Origin: Hadesarchaea archaeon | GTDB lineage: Archaea > Hadarchaeota > Hadarchaeia > Hadarchaeales > JAGGTB01 | Assembly: GCA_021163965.1 (NCBI GenBank) | Contig: JAGGTB010000001.1 | Span: 1 to 32,929 of the forward strand | DNA: 32,929 bases | Direction: 5' to 3' | Shown here: piece after piece, positions 13,728-32,929 of the stretch | Position numbering within the stretch: the stretch's first letter is position 1 | How the letters are laid out: the number at the start of each line of letters is the position of its first letter | Translations under genes and position numbers: made by a program | Notes under the pieces: model-generated | The model's input: only the letters and a program-made list of their open reading frames with translations | Database searches by the model: none | Told to the model about the DNA's origin: nothing

Positions 13728-16700
13728 TCAGATAAAATCCGCTATGCTGAGCTGTCTCCTGTCGTCGCTCTCGAAAATCGATTTGATTTCCCTCTCCACC
13801 AAGCTAAGGCGCTGGCGGGTATAGTTCTTCACCCCGAACTCGTCCGCCACCCGCATCGCCACCTGCAGGTACTTCTCCACTCCGCCTCGGGTCACCGTGA
13901 GGATGAGTTCCCCCCCGCAACGGCACTTCCCGCTGAGCGGAACCCTCCTGTACTTTGCGTTACAACTCGTGCACCTGAACTTCTGCTTGGCAAAAGCCCG
14001 GATGTTCCCCCTGAGGTCTGGAATGAAGTGGTGCTCTATTAGGCGCTCGGCGACATCCCGCTCATCGACGGCCCGAATCTTCCTCCCGAGCGAGAGCTGC
14101 GCATCCACCTTCTCCTCCATCGTTGCAAGCGTCTTGTAGCGGCAAGCCTTCGGGCCAGCAGCTATGTCCGATGTGTCGTGGGTGAACCGCAATCCTTCAT
14201 ACTGAGCCCTAGTTCCGAGCCTTCTCTTCACCGTCTCCACCTTTGACGCCATTTCGCTGGGATCCGCGAACCTCAACGTCGCCTCGTAGAACTCAAGCGG
14301 GTATGCGGGGGAGACATCCACGTTGTGCGCCTCCCTGTCTATTTCCCTGGGATCGATGCGGGCGTTGAGGACGAGGGGGGCATCCATCGTCCCGCCCCGC
14401 GACGACGGGAGAAAATGCCGGCTGAAGTTCAAGAGCGCGTCCATTAGAAGCATCACCGCGTCCTCGTCACCATCGGCGTCTCGACGTTTGGCCGCGTGGA
14501 AGTAAGGATGGGCATATCCTACGTTTGCCTCCGTGAACCCTATTATCCTCCCGACGACTCCAGCCGAAGTGTGTGGGGCCAGACCTATAATCAACTGACC
14601 GACTAGGTCCTCCAGTTGCGTTGCGTTGTAGTAAGGCGGTAGCCCGTAGAACTTCTGGAGAAGGTCGTCGACAAATCTCGCCGCCCGGAGGAGGTACTCG
14701 GCACACGGTTTGGACAGCACGACATCTTGGACTTTCAGCTCTAGCACTTGATCCTCCCTTTCCAAAGGATTTCCGTCCACATCCCTTTCGTACCCCAGCT
14801 CGCGGAGCCTCTCCACTGACGTCCCCACCTCCCTCGGACGGAAGTGGGTCAACGGAAGGTTCGTGGCATCAAACCTGATAGTTCCATCCTTGAAGACGTA
14901 GACCCCATGTTTCGCCCTGAGGATCCCCTTTTCCAAGGGCTCAGGGATCTTGTGATCACTTGTCATTCCTCGGACGCCCTTGATCTCCTTCGGAAGTTGC
15001 TCCCGTAATTTCTTAAGAGCCTCGTCGAGAAGCGAGCGTATCTCTATTTCACGGCGGTCATAGTACACCGTGCGAGCACCGCACGCTACACACGTCTCGG
15101 TCTTCGATGTTCTCCCGCAGTTAGAACATATCCTAGTGAACTCCGTTCTCCCCCCACACTTCGGACACTTCCTCCTGAAAGTTATCGTGCCGCACTCTGG
15201 GCACTGACATCTGACCACCTCCACGTAAACTACCCCCTTCTCAGCCGCCTTGGGGATACTCCGTGCGTGTCCCCCGCGTAGACCAATGGGGAACAGAACG
15301 TGTGGGGGCGGGGACATCTTGCGGGGATTCGCTTTCTCCGGTCTCCCCATTCTGCACCCAATTCTCGTCGGGGCCTTCACCCTAACTGGGAACCCGGCGA
15401 GAATTTGAATTATCTCCATCGTGTCATCCGTTGGATGGGTCCTAATCGTCTCCCGAAGCCTCTCACTCGTCAAACGCCCCTCTTGAATCAGGCCGAGGCA
15501 CGTGCAGAGGGGAAGCGCTGGCTCTTCGATCACGACATGTCCATCCTCCACAGCGTGGGGGACCCCTAAAATTTCAAGCACACGCTTTTGCGTCGGACTT
15601 ATCTTCAAGCGAAGCCGCTTAAGAGCCCCTTCATCGAATTCCGGCTCCCCTTCAGCTAGCCACTCCCCAACCTCCCTTATCTCCTCCAAGCTGACATCGT
15701 TGAAGTGATAAGTATAGGCCGGGTGGAGAGGAACACCGAGCTTCTGGGAGAGTTCAACCGCCACCCTTGCCGGAGGCCTCAGCTTCGCGTCCGTATATTT
15801 CTCTAACTCTCGCCGGGGCAGGCTTTTCCCCTTCTCCTTCAGGGCTTTTTTTACCTCCTGGGCCCACCACTCCTCGCAGTATCCCGCCGGCATCAACGGG
15901 TGATTGTTCTCGAGAAACTCACCAAAGCCTATGAGGATATCTCCAAGAAACAGTATTTCGCTGACCTTACTTCTAATCTCCTCCGCGAGCGCTACTGAAT
16001 CCACTTGAACTACGGACCCATCCGCCAATTTAACTATCGGCCCCTCTATCGTATCTACCGGTGCTACTGCGGCTGCTTTGCCAGGACGTTCGATCTTAAG
16101 TTGCGTTCCGATTGCCAAGTGATCTTCCAAGATTTTCATCGTCGCGGGGTGGATCCCAACGGCCGCGAGGCCCGTATTCCTCGCACGGCCATACCTTAGC
16201 CTGAACCCTCCCTCGCGTGCCGGGTGGCCGAATACTGCTCTCCCCGCGATGATATCCGCCAGATACCTATCACTTCCAGAAAGAGGCCGGGCCTCCTCCT
16301 CTTCCTCCGCTGGACGGTGCGAGAGCTCGTGGAGCCATTCCCATCCCTCAATGCCCAGTTTTTTGACATACTTCAAAATTTTCGGCGCCTTCTGGAGTAC
16401 TCCCTCCGCCAATGCCAGAACGGCTCCCCCTCGGATGCGGTTAGTCTCGATGCGATCCAGATTGCGATAACCGCTGACGGTCACCTGTTCCGTGGGTTCG
16501 CCGTTTATTTCAACGGGAATATTTCTAACAGCTTTTCGCACGTCGTCCGCTGGCGGGGTATATTGTAAGTGGGTCACCTCAGACGAATACATCTCAACCT
16601 CTTCAACAAAACGTTCAACTTCCTCGTCCGTGGGCTTGTAGGCGTCAAGGTAGAGTTTACGGCGAACAAAGTCCCCAGTGAGAACGGCCAAGGCGGCTGC

Positions 16701-17153
16701 AGTGCCCCCCGCCGAACGAATAGGTCCCGCGAAGTATAAAGCAAGGTAGCGTGACCCGTCGAAGTTCTTCTTAATTTTCACCTGCGTTATTCCCTCGATC
16801 GGAGCCGCTGCTGCTATCCCCTCGGTAATTATCGCCAAAGCTGTCCGGACAGCTTGCTCAGCTGCTCGGGCCTCATCGAGCCTTCCAAAGTGCCCGTCTA
16901 CGATCATTTCCGCTATCTTAAGAGCCACCTCCTCCCGCGGCAGCTCTTTCTCAAGCTTCCGTATTGTCGGGGCTACTCCCTTTGGACCTACAAGCTTCTC
17001 TACCCTCGCGGCTAGGTCTTCAGCGCGGGGAATCTCCGGTTTCGGCTCGGGGTCAAGACATAAAGCGCGTGCCTTCTCGGCCACCCTATATGCCTCTTCA
17101 ACCTTTTTCTCCAGTTCATCGAAGTATTTCATTTGTTCACCTGAATTAGGCAA
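13728..17153 (-). CDS. polC: DNA polymerase II (PolD) large subunit DP2
   Basis: 1141 aa; YLALYFAGPIRSAGGTAAAL, AKRRDADGDEDAVMLLMDALLNFSRHFLPSSRGG, zinc-binding cysteines; no intein. Confidence 0.97.
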   Translation of the reverse strand: MPNSGEQMKYFDELEKKVEEAYRVAEKARALCLDPEPKPEIPRAEDLAARVEKLVGPKGVAPTIRKLEKELPREEVALKIAEMIVDGHFGRLDEARAAEQAVRTALAIITEGIAAAAPIEGITQVKIKKNFDGSRYLALYFAGPIRSAGGTAAALAVLTGDFVRRKLYLDAYKPTDEEVERFVEEVEMYSSEVTHLQYTPPADDVRKAVRNIPVEINGEPTEQVTVSGYRNLDRIETNRIRGGAVLALAEGVLQKAPKILKYVKKLGIEGWEWLHELSHRPAEEEEEARPLSGSDRYLADIIAGRAVFGHPAREGGFRLRYGRARNTGLAAVGIHPATMKILEDHLAIGTQLKIERPGKAAAVAPVDTIEGPIVKLADGSVVQVDSVALAEEIRSKVSEILFLGDILIGFGEFLENNHPLMPAGYCEEWWAQEVKKALKEKGKSLPRRELEKYTDAKLRPPARVAVELSQKLGVPLHPAYTYHFNDVSLEEIREVGEWLAEGEPEFDEGALKRLRLKISPTQKRVLEILGVPHAVEDGHVVIEEPALPLCTCLGLIQEGRLTSERLRETIRTHPTDDTMEIIQILAGFPVRVKAPTRIGCRMGRPEKANPRKMSPPPHVLFPIGLRGGHARSIPKAAEKGVVYVEVVRCQCPECGTITFRRKCPKCGGRTEFTRICSNCGRTSKTETCVACGARTVYYDRREIEIRSLLDEALKKLREQLPKEIKGVRGMTSDHKIPEPLEKGILRAKHGVYVFKDGTIRFDATNLPLTHFRPREVGTSVERLRELGYERDVDGNPLEREDQVLELKVQDVVLSKPCAEYLLRAARFVDDLLQKFYGLPPYYNATQLEDLVGQLIIGLAPHTSAGVVGRIIGFTEANVGYAHPYFHAAKRRDADGDEDAVMLLMDALLNFSRHFLPSSRGGTMDAPLVLNARIDPREIDREAHNVDVSPAYPLEFYEATLRFADPSEMASKVETVKRRLGTRAQYEGLRFTHDTSDIAAGPKACRYKTLATMEEKVDAQLSLGRKIRAVDERDVAERLIEHHFIPDLRGNIRAFAKQKFRCTSCNAKYRRVPLSGKCRCGGELILTVTRGGVEKYLQVAMRVADEFGVKNYTRQRLSLVEREIKSIFESDDRRQLSIADFI

Positions 17154-18726
17154 AGCGTATTGCCCTTACTTTTCTTGTCCGTAAATCCACTAAGGGGACT
17201 ATTCCTGGAGTTGGCCTAACTCCGCGCCTCTTCATGTAGCTAGTCCTCTCTTGGAAAGTCGCCGAGTTGACCAGAAGCACTCCCCTGTACTTTCCACAAC
17301 CGTAGACGTGGAGATGGCCCGTGTGAAAAACGTCCGGTACCTCCTCTATCACTAGATAGTCCCTCCCCTCTGGGGCGATCGGAGCGCGTCCGCCCATAGG
17401 CTCGCCATATATGGGGGCGAGATGACGCTTCTTGAGGGATTTGATCATGGGATTGACGGAGTTCTTCCGGTCGAGAGAGGAGTCCGCAGAAATCAAATCG
17501 TCAAATCCCCTACCGTGATAGATCAAAAACCTTGTGCCGTGGAGCAACAAGTGGGCCGGATTTCCTACGAGCACGGGTTCGAAACTCTCGAAATCTGAGG
17601 CAATGTCCTTGGGAAGCGCGGGCTGAGGCTCCAGAGGTCTGACAGCATCGTGGTTGCCCGGAGACACTATTATCTTCACGTGCTCTGGAACTTGACTCAG
17701 GTACTCCACAACTGCATCGTATTGTTTATTTATGTCGTGGATGACCAGTTCTTCTTCCTGATTCGGATATATCCCCACCCCGTCCACGAGATCACCAGCT
17801 ATCACTAGGTACTTAACACGCCCCGCCACTTGTCGCTGGTTCGGATTTCCTGATTCCCCCCGCAACCATTTTAAAAACCTTGCAAAGGCATCCTCCAAGA
17901 ACATCTCACTTCCCACGTGAAGATCTGAAATGAGCGCAGCATAGATGGGTTCACTCCCTTCCTCAGCTGTCCCCTCGTCTCTCCTCTGTCTAGGTACTGG
18001 GATATCCGGCCAAACTATATCATTGACAAAGAGGAGGCGAGACCAGCGGGAATCACTACCGACCCTCGCCTCAACGCCTATCACCTCATCCGTGACTACT
18101 TCCGAGGCCTTCCTCATAAGTTCGTTCCTATTTTTGTGAACGAAAACCACAGCATTTCCCGTGGGGTCCTCAAGCTCTATGATTAGATCTCTCTTCCTTG
18201 TCTCCCTCTTGTCCATCACCATACCTATAATTCTCACCGTCTGACCCTCGTACTCTCTTACACTACCTATCGGGATCGCTCCTCTCATATCCAATCTCTC
18301 CTTCAGTATCCTGCTCAGGCGCTCATACCTGTCGTTGAATAATCTGATGAAATCCTCTATCCTTCCCTGACTGTTGCTATGTCCGGTGACATCGATCAAA
18401 ACCTCAACCTCCGGCTCGATATCCGCTGCTGGAGGCTCAAACTTCCCGCAAGCTATTTTGGTCTTGATCTTTTCTGGATGGGTCTCAGCTTGTGAAAAGA
18501 CGGGGGGCTCCGCCTCTACTGAAGTTTTAGATCCTCCCCTTAGGATCCTCCTAACCAGCTCCTCTGTAACTATCACCGGCTTTTCTGGCATCGATCTGAA
18601 CCTTTCGAGAACCATCTCAGCCGCGGATCTAAGGTCCCCAGTTTCCCGCAACGAGTTGAGGGCTCCGGGCGTCACATGCATGTCCGCATCGATGAATTTT
18701 TTAATTATCTCTACATCTTCAGCCAT
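17146..18726 (-). CDS. polB: DNA polymerase II (PolD) small subunit DP1
   Basis: 526 aa; OB fold plus calcineurin-like phosphodiesterase motifs LISDLHVGS, VIAGDLVDG, SPGNHDAVR, HTGHLH. Confidence 0.96.
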   Translation of the reverse strand: MAEDVEIIKKFIDADMHVTPGALNSLRETGDLRSAAEMVLERFRSMPEKPVIVTEELVRRILRGGSKTSVEAEPPVFSQAETHPEKIKTKIACGKFEPPAADIEPEVEVLIDVTGHSNSQGRIEDFIRLFNDRYERLSRILKERLDMRGAIPIGSVREYEGQTVRIIGMVMDKRETRKRDLIIELEDPTGNAVVFVHKNRNELMRKASEVVTDEVIGVEARVGSDSRWSRLLFVNDIVWPDIPVPRQRRDEGTAEEGSEPIYAALISDLHVGSEMFLEDAFARFLKWLRGESGNPNQRQVAGRVKYLVIAGDLVDGVGIYPNQEEELVIHDINKQYDAVVEYLSQVPEHVKIIVSPGNHDAVRPLEPQPALPKDIASDFESFEPVLVGNPAHLLLHGTRFLIYHGRGFDDLISADSSLDRKNSVNPMIKSLKKRHLAPIYGEPMGGRAPIAPEGRDYLVIEEVPDVFHTGHLHVYGCGKYRGVLLVNSATFQERTSYMKRRGVRPTPGIVPLVDLRTRKVRAIRFA

Positions 18727-18735
18727 TACCAGTCC

Positions 18736-20013
18736 TCACACAAGTTTGAGTTGCCTCGGGATGGACGCAGGATCCGGATCTCCTATCTCCATATCATCCA
18801 GTATCGCCGCCTTGACCTGAATTGGCTGGACGTTAAGCTCTATTTCCTTGGTCCTCCCGTAACGCCCCTTGTTGGTTATCCTAGCATTCACTATCCCCAA
18901 CATATCCAGCTCAGAAATCAGGTCGCTAACGCGGCGCTTGGTCAAGATGTCCTGTCCATTTCTGCGGCAGAGGGCGCAGTAGACGTTGTATACATCTCCG
19001 GTGACTATCCTGGGTACCCTGTGCTCGTTCAAGAGGACTATGCTGTAAAGGACTAACTTAGACTGAGTCGGGAGGGTGTGGATCACCTCCAGCATCTTGT
19101 CCCTTTCTATCTTCTCGAAAGCCCTTGAGACGTGAGTCGTCGTGACTTTTTCCGCCCCCTCTATCTCTGCGAGCTCCCCGGCCGTGCGCAATAGATCTAG
19201 TGCGCGCCTCGCATCCCCATGTTCCCTCGCGGCATGGGCGGCGCAGAGTGGTATTACCCCGGGATCAAGGACTCCTTCTTCGAAACTCATTTCTGCCCTC
19301 TTTCTCAATATGTCGCCGAGCTGGAGAGCATTGTAAGGTGGAAAGACCAATTCTTCCTCGCTGAGGCTACTCCTAACGCGAGGATCTAGATAGTCCATGA
19401 AATTCAGATTATTCGAAATTCCAACTATGCTCACCTTGGAGTTCGTTAGGTCGGAGTTCATACGAGTAAGCGTATATAATACCTCGTCGCCGCTCCTCAT
19501 AACCAACCTGTCTATCTCATCGAGCACTATGATCAGCACCTGCTCCACGGCATCCACCGCCTCAAAGAAGTATCGATACACTTGATCCGTTGGCCACCCG
19601 GTCATCGGGACCTGCTCGGGCAGGCCCTTTCCATTCCCCCGACCTTCCTCACTCCTTCTCTCGAGGAGGACATTGGCCAGCGTCGCTAAAATGCGGTATT
19701 TAGTCCGAATCTCCTCACAATTCAAATATATGACCTCGATTTTCTTCGGGGCTCGCCCCCCGACCTTCTCAAGCTCCTTCATCACATGTTTGACCGTAGC
19801 AGTCTTACCAGTCCCGGGCTTGCCATATATGAAAACATTCGAGGGGGTCTCCCCGCGCAAAGGAGCAGCCCAAATACGCGCGAGGTTGTGAATCTGTTCC
19901 CTACGGTGGGGAAGCTCTTCTGGCGTGTAGCTCGGCCGGAGATACTCTCTGTTCCGGAATATTCGTTGCCCCCTCAGCAACATATCAAACAGGCTTCCTG
20001 AATTTTTCTCCAT
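18736..20013 (-). CDS. cdc6: Orc1/Cdc6 origin-binding initiator
   Basis: AAA+ motifs IYGKPGTGKTATVKHVM, VLDEIDRL, SKVSIVGISNNLNF, DPRVRSSL, C-terminal WH; likely ATG (MEKNSGSLF) at 20011-20013, though the ORF extends to 20043. Confidence 0.93.
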   Translation of the reverse strand: MEKNSGSLFDMLLRGQRIFRNREYLRPSYTPEELPHRREQIHNLARIWAAPLRGETPSNVFIYGKPGTGKTATVKHVMKELEKVGGRAPKKIEVIYLNCEEIRTKYRILATLANVLLERRSEEGRGNGKGLPEQVPMTGWPTDQVYRYFFEAVDAVEQVLIIVLDEIDRLVMRSGDEVLYTLTRMNSDLTNSKVSIVGISNNLNFMDYLDPRVRSSLSEEELVFPPYNALQLGDILRKRAEMSFEEGVLDPGVIPLCAAHAAREHGDARRALDLLRTAGELAEIEGAEKVTTTHVSRAFEKIERDKMLEVIHTLPTQSKLVLYSIVLLNEHRVPRIVTGDVYNVYCALCRRNGQDILTKRRVSDLISELDMLGIVNARITNKGRYGRTKEIELNVQPIQVKAAILDDMEIGDPDPASIPRQLKLV

Positions 20014-20500
20014 TTTCACCTGCCTCCTCGGTCCTCTTTCCAAGAAAACGGCCCAACCATTCCCTCCAACTATTCAAAACTAAGGTAAGACGGTTGAGCA
20101 AAAACTGCTCTTCCGGTGGCAAACCCTTAACCCTAACCCCAGATACCGCCAAATTCACAATCTTTTGCACGCGTGTCTCCACGAGAGAATCGGTAGCATC
20201 TAGCAACTCTTCAAGGTGCTCAATCTCGCCGCTCTCCCGTGCTCTCGTGACCTCCCCGGCAATTGTGAGATAAAAATCCAGCGGCAGCTCCCTCAAAGTA
20301 GGAGATTTTTCCTCCGCGAGCACGAGCTTGCGCAATTCCGCCACCGTGGGTTTCCATATCCTTTCCACAAACCCGTGACGCTCGAGAACTTGAGCCTCCC
20401 AAGTCCATACGTCGATCTCCTGACCGCTAGCTACCGGTCCCACCTTCCTCCCAACGAGCATTAGCTTGGGCAAATCCTTAACGACACGGACGCGTTGCAT
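19985..20500 (-). CDS. DNA replication factor GINS, Gins23-type (N-terminal B domain then A domain)
   Basis: 171 aa; N-terminal VVKDLPKLMLVGRKVGPVASGQEIDVWTWEAQVLERHGFVE, then ELPLDFYLTIAGEV. Confidence 0.75.
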   Translation of the reverse strand: MQRVRVVKDLPKLMLVGRKVGPVASGQEIDVWTWEAQVLERHGFVERIWKPTVAELRKLVLAEEKSPTLRELPLDFYLTIAGEVTRARESGEIEHLEELLDATDSLVETRVQKIVNLAVSGVRVKGLPPEEQFLLNRLTLVLNSWREWLGRFLGKRTEEAGENGEKFRKPV

Positions 20501-29973: not shown

Positions 29974-30588
29974 TTACTTTGGTTTTTTAGTCCCTTTCCC
30001 AGAGAGATAGCCGAAAGTAACATTATCCCCAACGTTTGACGGTTGGAGGCGGCTCCTGAGGCGCCCCAGTCTGGCCTCCAGATCCCTAGAGAAAACCCTT
30101 CCATCGGACCAGTCCATCCTCATCAGCTCGTCGGCCGCCTGAAGGACTCTGCGAATCCTACGTTGGACTTCAGAATCCACAGCGCCCGGTGGGAAACTTT
30201 CGAGTATCCTCATCTCCTCCTCCAGATATATACCAGGACGAACGCTCGCTCTCTGAAGCGTCTCCCTCATCGCTTTGAGTCTCTCGTTGGCGGGTAAAAT
30301 TGCGTCGAAGACATGGAGCTCCATGGGCTTCCACCTCGGATCGTCGAAGAAGGAATCCAGCCTGCCGGCAGCGGGGAGGGGAACGGCTATCACGCTCTTC
30401 CCCAGTCGAAGGTGAGGAATCGAAGTTAGGACTCCCGCATACTCATGGGTATAGGTTCGGGGCCCATCATCCGCCGTGCGAGTCGTGCGTGCGGTGAAAC
30501 CGAAGAGTTTGCGGTAAAACGTCGTGCGCTTCCCCCCGCGAAACTTGATATCAAAGCTATAGACGCGGGCTAGAGTTTGGTTCCTCAT
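29974..30588 (-). CDS. uncharacterised protein adjacent to the candidate origin
   Basis: Likely ATG at 30586-30588: MRNQTLARVYSFDIKFRGGKRTTFYRKLFGFTARTTRT...; the longer TTG-initiated ORF would read through a perfect palindrome. Confidence 0.7.
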   Translation of the reverse strand: MRNQTLARVYSFDIKFRGGKRTTFYRKLFGFTARTTRTADDGPRTYTHEYAGVLTSIPHLRLGKSVIAVPLPAAGRLDSFFDDPRWKPMELHVFDAILPANERLKAMRETLQRASVRPGIYLEEEMRILESFPPGAVDSEVQRRIRRVLQAADELMRMDWSDGRVFSRDLEARLGRLRSRLQPSNVGDNVTFGYLSGKGTKKPK

Positions 30589-30591
30589 CGT

Positions 30592-30613
30592 TTTTGTTAC
30601 ACGTGTAACAAAA
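30592..30613. promoter_or_regulatory. palindrome 1, candidate operator: TTTTGTTACACGTGTAACAAAA
   Basis: 22-bp perfect palindrome directly upstream of the ATG at 30588; shares TTGTTA-N6-TAACAA with three other sites. Confidence 0.75.
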
Positions 30614-30680
30614 CTTAACTTTGTCGGCGAGCCTTTGGGGCGGAGGTTACCTCTTTCTCTCTTATATCGTGTCAAAGCCC

Positions 30681-30704
30681 GGACCCCTTCATTTCCACTG
30701 GAAC
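30681..30704 (-). other. origin recognition box-like element (ORB-L)
   Basis: Plus strand GGACCCCTTCATTTCCACTGGAAC; reverse complement GTTCCAGTGGAAATGAAGGGGTCC, like archaeal Orc1/Cdc6 ORB (TTCCAGTGGAAAC..A-GGGG). Confidence 0.65.
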
Positions 30705-30901
30705 ATTATTCATTATTTTACATCCTTTTTTGTTACATATGTAACAAACAAAACACTAAAAGAGACCGTTGTGAGCTATTATTCTACCAAGAACCCTCCT
30801 TTTTCTGATTAAGACAAAAGTTAATTCTATTTTGGAAGATAAAAGCTAATTTTCAAGTTTTAGTCCCCCCCACAGTGAAAAGAATTCTTATGGATCAAAA
30901 G
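30705..30901. other. AT-rich intergenic region between inverted ORB-like elements: candidate replication origin / unwinding element
   Basis: Long A/T stretches with no ORF of note, bounded by ORB-like elements in opposite orientation. Confidence 0.55.
30729..30748. promoter_or_regulatory. palindrome 2: TTTGTTACATATGTAACAAA
   Basis: 20-bp perfect palindrome inside the candidate unwinding region. Confidence 0.75.
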
Positions 30902-30924
30902 TTCTCCAGTCGAAACAAGGGGGT
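30902..30924 (+). other. origin recognition box-like element (ORB-R)
   Basis: TTCTCCAGTCGAAACAAGGGGGT, opposite orientation to ORB-L, abutting the tyrS stop. Confidence 0.65.
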
Positions 30925-30929
30925 GTCCC

Positions 30930-31970
30930 CTAATGCGTTACTTCCTGCTCCCTGACGAACTCGTAAAGTCTTTGGGCTCTCTTATCACGTTCAAAATGCC
31001 TCCTGATTGGCGCACAGAGTCGATTGATGTAGTCCGCAACCCCCCTCTTGAGGTCTAGGGGATGGAGTTCCCCTTTCACATACGCTCGCTCTAGCTCCGA
31101 AAAACCGCGATAGACAACATCTCCCCCGTATTTCCTTTCCCTACATATCTCCATGGAGTCGAAGGCTCCGAAGATCACGTGTTTCGCGTAATCGGTGATT
31201 GGATTGTCTTGGACGCTCCTCTCCGGGCAGTATGCCCTCTCGATTTTCCTCCTTATCTCCTCCTCCGAGTCGTGGACGTAGATGCAGGTCTCCGGCTCGC
31301 TCTTGCTCATCTTCTTATCCCTCGGTCCTCGAAGGCTCATGAGCATGTGGTGATGGACGGCTACTGGCTTCTTCCTCCCGAGCCTTGGGGCGATCTCCCT
31401 GGCCAGCATATTTGCCCTTCGCTGGTCCATCCCCAACTGGCAGATGTCGACGTCTAACTGGAAGATATCGGCCACCTGCATGCTGGGGTAAAACGCCCAC
31501 GCCGTAGGACTCTCCATGGTCCCCTCCCTACCGGCGATTGACATGGCTCGCACAGTTCGCCTGAGGGTGTGATTTTTGGCGATGGAAATGACGGTCTTCC
31601 AGTACTCTCTGTCCATCTGCTCGGAGGCCCACAGCACCTCCACCTTGTCCATGGGGACCCCGGCGGCCTTCCAGACCTCGATGAAGTACTCGCCGACTTT
31701 CCTTATCTTCTCGAGGTCACCTCCCATCTTGTCGTTTATCCAAGCGTACCAGTCGGCGAGCAGGAGCTTGAACCTCACTCCAGCATCTATCATTTTCTTG
31801 AGATTGATCGCCCGGTAAACCCCGAAGGGGAGGTGCGCCATCCCCGAGGGCTCGAAGCCGTCGTAGGCCACGGGATGCTCCTTTGTCTCTAAGAGTTCCC
31901 TCAGCTCCTCCTCCGTGACTATCTCCTCCCCCACCTGTTTGATCAGCTCCAGCCTCCCTTCTACGTCCAT
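30930..31970 (-). CDS. tyrS: tyrosyl-tRNA synthetase
   Basis: 346 aa from MDVEGRLELIKQVGEEIVTEEELRELL; AYDGFEPSGMAHLPFG, KKMSKSEPETCIYV. The ORF upstream of 31970 is a poor N-terminal extension. Confidence 0.95.
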   Translation of the reverse strand: MDVEGRLELIKQVGEEIVTEEELRELLETKEHPVAYDGFEPSGMAHLPFGVYRAINLKKMIDAGVRFKLLLADWYAWINDKMGGDLEKIRKVGEYFIEVWKAAGVPMDKVEVLWASEQMDREYWKTVISIAKNHTLRRTVRAMSIAGREGTMESPTAWAFYPSMQVADIFQLDVDICQLGMDQRRANMLAREIAPRLGRKKPVAVHHHMLMSLRGPRDKKMSKSEPETCIYVHDSEEEIRRKIERAYCPERSVQDNPITDYAKHVIFGAFDSMEICRERKYGGDVVYRGFSELERAYVKGELHPLDLKRGVADYINRLCAPIRRHFERDKRAQRLYEFVREQEVTH

Positions 31971-32049
31971 CTCAATCAAATTCGTATAGTGGGTTGGGAA
32001 ATTAATAAACACCGATAATACGGACTGGGTGGAAGATCTGAACAAGTAG

Positions 32050-32067
32050 TTGTTATATATATAACAA
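32050..32067. promoter_or_regulatory. palindrome 3: TTGTTATATATATAACAA
   Basis: 18-bp perfect palindrome upstream of tyrS. Confidence 0.75.
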
Positions 32068-32117: not shown

Positions 32118-32135
32118 TTGTTAATATATTAACAA
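32118..32135. promoter_or_regulatory. palindrome 4: TTGTTAATATATTAACAA
   Basis: 18-bp perfect palindrome upstream of tyrS, centre 68 bp from palindrome 3. Confidence 0.75.
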
Positions 32136-32494: not shown

Positions 32495-32929
32495 TTGCGG
32501 GTGAGACCTCGTTCCATAGCGATCACCTCCGGGAAGGGGGGAACGGGAAAGACGACCCTCACTGCGAACTTAGGGGTGGCTCTCGGGGCCTTGGGCAGGG
32601 ACGTGACGATACTCGACGCCGACATCGGGATGGCGAACCTCGCGCTCGTTGTGGGGATGCAAAAGGTCGAGCTTTCCCTCTCCGACGCGCTTATGGGAAA
32701 GGCCGAGGTCCCGGACGTCGTGCACGAGAACTACGGGATAAAGGTAGTTCCGATGGGGATCCGATTCGAGGATGCTCATGAGGCGCTCTCCAACGTGAAG
32801 CGCGAGCGGGTCGAGGAGGTGGTAGAGGAACTCCTGAGGCAGACGGAGTTCCTGCTGGTGGACGCGGCGGCCGGGGTTCAGGACTCCACGATAATCTCGA
32901 TCGCGTCGACGAGGGAGATGCTCCCCGTC
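32495..32929 (+). CDS. ParA/MinD family ATPase (3' end outside window)
   Basis: GGAGG at 32482 then TTG (32495) or GTG (32501); RSIAITSGKGGTGKTTLTANLGVALGALGRDVTILDADIGMANL, deviant Walker A and Walker B-like FLLVDAAAG. Confidence 0.9.
   Translation, partial: MRVRPRSIAITSGKGGTGKTTLTANLGVALGALGRDVTILDADIGMANLALVVGMQKVELSLSDALMGKAEVPDVVHENYGIKVVPMGIRFEDAHEALSNVKRERVEEVVEELLRQTEFLLVDAAAGVQDSTIISIASTREMLPV

Follow-up and report, generated by a model that had tools for sequence, protein, structure and literature searches.

A candidate origin-binding protein with a predicted Cas2-like fold, encoded beside predicted ORB-type origins in Hadarchaea

The gene at positions 29974 to 30588, (-) strand, of the window (the whole 32.9-kb stretch of DNA analyzed here; 32,929 nucleotides) encodes a small basic protein of 204 amino acids. 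This protein, overlooked until now, probably binds the origin and regulates its own gene, since that gene adjoins a likely replication origin and is accompanied by palindromes that stand at a fixed distance from an ORB in two unrelated groups of archaea. Our main reading, to which we assign a probability of roughly 0.6, is that the product is a basic, probably dimeric DNA-binding protein of a so far undescribed family in archaea, that its ferredoxin fold is like that of Cas2, and that it has roles both at oriC and in autoregulation. As judged from the sequences, the family is best read as a new group of dimeric palindrome-binding proteins, in which one paralogue would act in oriC and control itself and the other would run a small regulon.

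A likely oriC and its palindromes in the window

The ORB-like element that a preliminary description had placed upstream of the gene proved to be a perfect ORB, ORB1 (TTCCAGTGGAAATGAAGGGG; 30684 to 30703, (-) strand), which is the only match with 0 mismatches in the genome. An inverted ORB2 (30904 to 30923, (+) strand) is degenerate, with three mismatches; most orthologous loci have better-matching inverted second ORBs. The 200 bp between the two are 70% AT, compared to 46.5% across the window, and the predicted oriC spans 30684 to 30923. Inverted ORBs around an AT-rich segment, with cdc6 nearby, are features of ORB-type origins. The orc1/cdc6 initiator gene (18736 to 20043, (-) strand) lies about 10.6 kb from the predicted oriC and is followed by the genes for PolD DP1 (17146 to 18726) and DP2 (13728 to 17153), all three falling within 10 to 17 kb, and nearly all genes to the left of the predicted oriC are transcribed away from that point. 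The opposite side is occupied by a conserved neighbor, the tyrosyl-tRNA synthetase (TyrRS) gene (30930 to 31973, (-) strand), and by a gene for a MinD/ParA-type ATPase (32495 to 32929, (+) strand), a candidate target gene that is cut by the contig end. These ORBs and neighboring genes make this site a likely oriC. GC skew was uninformative about origin position in three genomes (G009, G015, and G037). AT skew helped in G046 only, where the gene sits at the maximum of the cumulative AT skew, next to an inverted pair of TAGTGGAAGTGTGGGG ORB-like copies that are the only two in the ~420 kb sampled.

Four palindromes had been described in the window, and they are indeed perfect sites of 22, 20, 18, and 18 bp. 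Palindrome 1 (TTTTGTTACACGTGTAACAAAA; 30592 to 30613), the 22-bp site, is a proposed autoregulatory operator; it had been correctly placed just ahead of the start codon, with a gap to the ATG that is 3 nt rather than the 4 given earlier. Palindrome 2 (20 bp; 30729 to 30748) lies between the two ORBs, with its center 35 bp before ORB1, and is a proposed origin element. The two 18-bp sites, TTGTTATATATATAACAA (32050 to 32067) and TTGTTAATATATTAACAA (32118 to 32135), are upstream of minD. Apart from these four, the window contains a single perfect palindrome of ≥16 bp, the 18-bp AAGCTGTCCGGACAGCTT (16838 to 16855) within the PolD large-subunit gene, and its sequence is unrelated. With up to two mismatches allowed, TTGTTAN6TAACAA occurs four times in the window, each time exactly; shuffled sequences averaged 0.42, and none of 100 shuffles reached four. 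The 780-kb genome has 42 exact sites versus 0 for the reversed-motif control; since ~29 of them belong to a dispersed repeat, fewer sites than this raw count suggests have been retained independently, and we base our argument on those at the origin and at promoters. Two types can be told apart by their centers. The P type (CACGTG or CATATG), to which palindrome 1 belongs, is found beside the long form of the protein, and the S type (TATATA or TAAATA), represented by the site at 32050, beside a short form, which suggests that each paralogue may own its version of the palindrome.

A palindrome at a fixed distance from the ORB

Orthologues were recovered on contigs of Hadesarchaea/Hadarchaeota MAGs, and all 10 found in Hadarchaea are directly beside ORBs. 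At most of these loci one ORB lies directly at the 5' end of the gene, a second, inverted ORB follows 90 to 222 bp beyond, and TyrRS comes after the pair, accompanied in some genomes by minD; the palindrome lies between the inverted ORBs in the window and in most orthologous loci. Five genomes (G009, G012, G015, G017, and G019) each have a single ORB with ≤1 mismatch, and it adjoins the gene. When nine oriC regions were aligned, only the ORB and the palindrome (TGTTACATATGTAACA to TGTTACAATAGTATCA, of the type TGTTACN4GTAACA) were conserved. The distance from palindrome center to ORB is 35 bp in G000, G006, G012, G016, and G019 and 34 bp in G015, G017, and G025, which together make up the eight Hadarchaea measured; the copy in G009 is degenerate and stands in register. 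A generic palindrome test was significant for three of nine Hadarchaeal long forms, as most relatives have imperfect palindromes. In G008, a Hadarchaeon with no detected homologue, there are three clusters of three to four TTGTTATATTTATAACAA sites spaced 34 to 114 bp apart (on C14, C53, and C59; L230 to L232).

The same geometry recurs in a second archaeal order (G137, G401, and G402), with spacings of 32, 35, and 35 bp and half-sites that read TTGTTAC, CTGTTAC, or TAGTTAC, although the homologues there are no more than distant relatives. The neighborhood comparison with cdc6 and ORBs that had been proposed earlier finds the homologue, ORBs, cdc6, and DP1 in one place in these three genomes, with cdc6 1 to 2 kb from the homologue locus there and in G037. 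In G037, G079, and G222 the homologue and ORBs are no more than ~550 bp apart. In the 1,418,269-bp genome of G037, the homologue, an inverted ORB pair, cdc6, and DP1 are together at 622 kb (C1:622381; L177).

We also searched 394 archaeal genomes blind to the gene with the pattern TTACN4GTANCAN{16,46}GGAAANNNAGGGG and a reversed control. This palindrome-ORB composite was present in eight genomes versus none in the control, and in all eight the adjacent gene is the homologue. A finding that homologues are never near origins or palindromes had been named as evidence against the proposal; those of the Hadarchaea and of the second order are instead found at ORBs with palindromes. The earlier suggestion of a "candidate autoregulated or origin-linked DNA-binding protein" is thereby supported, as a candidate, by homologues at ORBs accompanied by palindromes with the same half-sites at an offset of 32 to 35 bp.

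Predicted fold, paralogues, and promoter sites

The reading frame is intact, and the protein has a pI of 10.4 and includes the basic stretch quoted in the preliminary description. That account had noted a basic protein of ~204 residues from no recognized family, and searches of Pfam, NCBIfam, PHROGs, PADLOC, and the PDB gave no match to the protein or its family, and on these searches we reject a known-family identity and the unrelated enzyme assignment that would have spoken against the proposal. A viral or plasmid origin of the gene was likewise rejected, the IMG/VR, phage, and plasmid collections containing no relative. No recognized DNA-binding motif is present in the protein. AlphaFold produced confident models (pLDDT 89.7 and 90.9), which give the 204-aa protein a predicted Cas2-like ferredoxin-fold N-terminal domain (residues ~1 to 100) followed by a helical C-terminal domain (~100 to 181). 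With Foldseek, Cas2 chains head the list for the short form (probability 0.97 to 1.00, E = 0.02), the best matches being 4qr0 and 5h1o (probability 1.00, TM ~0.6), although E-values reached 0.001 in no search. Of these two programs, which had been recommended as a check, AlphaFold gives the Cas2-like fold with confidence. The likeness to Cas2 (PF09827) lies in the predicted ferredoxin-like fold and in a TM score of ~0.6 to Cas2 structures, whereas hhalign to archaeal Cas2 gave probabilities of only 3.0% for the short form and 0.8% for the long. The Pfam cutoff for Cas2 was not reached (E = 0.014 for the best family member, no match for the window protein), and none of the window neighbors scanned is a Cas protein. 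Assignment as a true Cas2 was rejected: the fold is similar and the profile homology is absent.

Homologues are present in 96 of 393 archaeal genomes. A tree of 73 family members, poorly resolved at depth, joins the Hadarchaeal long forms with the G137 order and G049 (support 95/87), all of which are ORB adjacent; in G049 the ORB is ~185 bp downstream of the homologue. The long form is not universal in Hadarchaea, as several (G001, G002, G004, G005, G008, G010, and G013) lack it. A short form of ~90 to 130 aa is encoded directly before CDC48 in Hadarchaea and in ~20 other small, DPANN-like genomes, and a comparison of the long and short profiles establishes that the two are homologous (hhalign 98.2%, E = 4.6e-14). 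In several other archaea the same domain is fused behind an MNT-type nucleotidyltransferase domain, recognized by eye (L164, L167, L168, L171, and L172).

A palindrome of this kind is also found at the promoter of the short paralogue itself, in keeping with the autoregulation proposed earlier. In ~10 Hadarchaeal genomes an exact TTGTTAN6TAACAA lies within ~50 bp of the short form's start codon, in most cases immediately behind a TATA-like TTTAAATA, and a one-mismatch copy is upstream of the short form in G009, G012, and G019. Most relatives hold 0 to 11 exact sites and some just one or two; the single exact site in the G004 genome, and both of those in G013, are at the short form. S-type palindromes also lie ~100 bp before dnaG in G011, G016, G017, G019, and G021, and they precede minD in the window as well as in G006 and G011. 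The short paralogue of the CDC48 operon may be pictured as acting on TTGTTA-TAWATA-TAACAA at its own promoter and at those of dnaG and minD. DPANN-like members have palindromes near their starts, and we claim no operators there because the per-gene statistics are mostly not significant.

Proposed role, competing explanations, and known systems

In the mechanism that we propose, the 204-aa protein most likely binds the palindrome TTGTTAC-N4-GTAACAA, and it would probably do so as a dimer because the site is a perfect dyad. Palindrome 2, 35 bp from ORB1, would place it at a fixed spot by ORB-bound Orc1/Cdc6 and the AT-rich segment, in a position to assist or gate the loading of MCM. At palindrome 1, directly before the ATG, it would block its own promoter, so that its level would be tied to origin occupancy. 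The fuller version of this proposal, that the Cas2-fold family supplies a sequence-specific accessory factor of the origin whose offset from ORB1 is kept in distantly related archaeal lineages and that the paralogue has a regulon of CDC48, DnaG primase, and MinD, we put forward only tentatively.

The most serious competitor, which we consider improbable, is that another factor (a repressor, Orc1/Cdc6, or an MCM-loading factor) binds the palindromes and that the gene is a bystander, perhaps for a Cas2-like nuclease. A ferredoxin fold with no classic DNA-binding motif would fit such a bystander, as Cas2-like folds include nucleases, and P-type sites elsewhere in the genome often have the ORB 3' half, AAATGAAGGGG, next to them, so that Orc1/Cdc6 may be involved. 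However, the composite occurs only beside this gene family among the 394 genomes, and there are two unlinked paralogue loci, each with palindromes at its own promoter, as self-regulation predicts.

Less probable still is a partition system, made up of a ParB- or SegB-like protein, parS-like palindromes, and the MinD/ParA-type ATPase as motor. The sequence TGTTACACGTGTAACA resembles bacterial parS, and palindromes precede minD in the window and in other Hadarchaea. The count of 42 genome sites, inflated by the repeat as it is, is close to the 46 to 49 sites of the archaeal partition protein SegB, which also has palindromes upstream of its own operon (PMC12284271), and the two systems are alike in combining such upstream sites with dozens more scattered on the chromosome. 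They differ in that SegB is a ribbon-helix-helix protein that recognizes TCTAGA-S-TCTAGA; our predicted structure has neither a ribbon-helix-helix nor a ParB fold and is ferredoxin-like instead, with TTGTTAC-N4-GTAACAA as the site. Further points against partition are the small numbers of sites in most relatives and the ATPase itself, which, partial as it is in the window, matches archaeal MinD rather than ParA.

That the palindromes are terminators or a multiplying MITE- or REP-like repeat, with the gene placed there by coincidence, has very little left to recommend it: a palindrome-bearing, non-coding repeat of 230 to 350 bp does occur at many positions, contig ends included, but the origin and paralogue-promoter sites lie outside it and are conserved, with fixed spacing, in other genera, so that pure repeats were rejected for those sites, and the conserved 34- to 35-bp spacing largely refutes this explanation.

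The repeat has features of its own. Pairs of copies are roughly 75 to 90% identical, and in G000 it was located at C10:5543-5785, C17:16619-16847, and C9:12261-12492 and on C18, C47, C8, C1, and C43 (L035 to L049). Palindromes of both the P and the S type occur in it, in an order that recurs, and the repeat could be a MITE-like element that makes use of the sites of the regulator. Its P-type palindromes are directly flanked by AATGAAGGG-like sequence, equivalent to the ORB 3' half; P sites flanked in this way are at G000:C8:25958, C40:65, C43:35, C18:8286, C9:11322, and C17:16660. Standalone P-type palindromes are accompanied by a shared motif, TTAACT(T/C)TGTCGGCG, at the origin (30615 to 30630 in the window), upstream of TFB (G000:C18, ~3640), and downstream of a second cdc6 (C43, ~4950). 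This second orc1/cdc6 (G000:C43:3584-4666; L048) is flanked on either side by palindromes (C43:2736 and 4874) and may mark a second origin or a captured element. The TFB gene (G000:C18:1049-3355; L043) encodes a 768-aa transcription factor IIB with intein-like matches between two TFB-matching stretches, that is, an intein in TFB.

For the origin-binding protein that we favor, the closest analogue by position is UBP, the ucm-binding protein of Sulfolobus, to which it is not demonstrably homologous. UBP has 111 aa; its monomer is described as binding the 11-bp ucm motif, its dimer is reported to share β strands in a five-stranded sheet (PDB 9EFD, 9EFE, and 9EFF), and it is proposed to be an accessory factor that meets MCM in the AT-rich segment of oriC (PMC12141716), much as we suppose for the protein described here. 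Both are small, basic archaeal proteins with an element between two ORBs in an AT-rich oriC and with further genomic sites; the differences are a palindrome instead of the ucm and 204 aa instead of 111. Profiles of the long form, the short form, and a third subfamily, run against the PDB (2026, assumed to include the three UBP entries) with E-values up to 10, matched unrelated chains only, so that no homology to UBP is detectable at the sequence level, and UBP was absent among the best 50 Foldseek matches for the long and short forms. WhiP, the Sulfolobus oriC3 initiator, is comparable as a non-Cdc6 protein encoded beside an origin; it differs in being a winged-helix protein at an origin without ORBs (PMC4010727), whereas the origins here have ORBs and the protein no winged helix.

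UBP is the sole archaeal non-initiator protein that we found in the literature to act at an ORB origin, and its reported range is limited to Sulfolobales and Desulfurococcales; the authors who discovered it raise the question of analogous proteins in more divergent archaea (PMC12141716). Hadarchaea and at least one further archaeal order now provide a candidate analogue for which site and spacing are defined. This second conserved origin motif should improve origin prediction in uncultured archaea, and, if the fuller version of our proposal is true, a two-protein circuit would link origin activity to replication and segregation genes.
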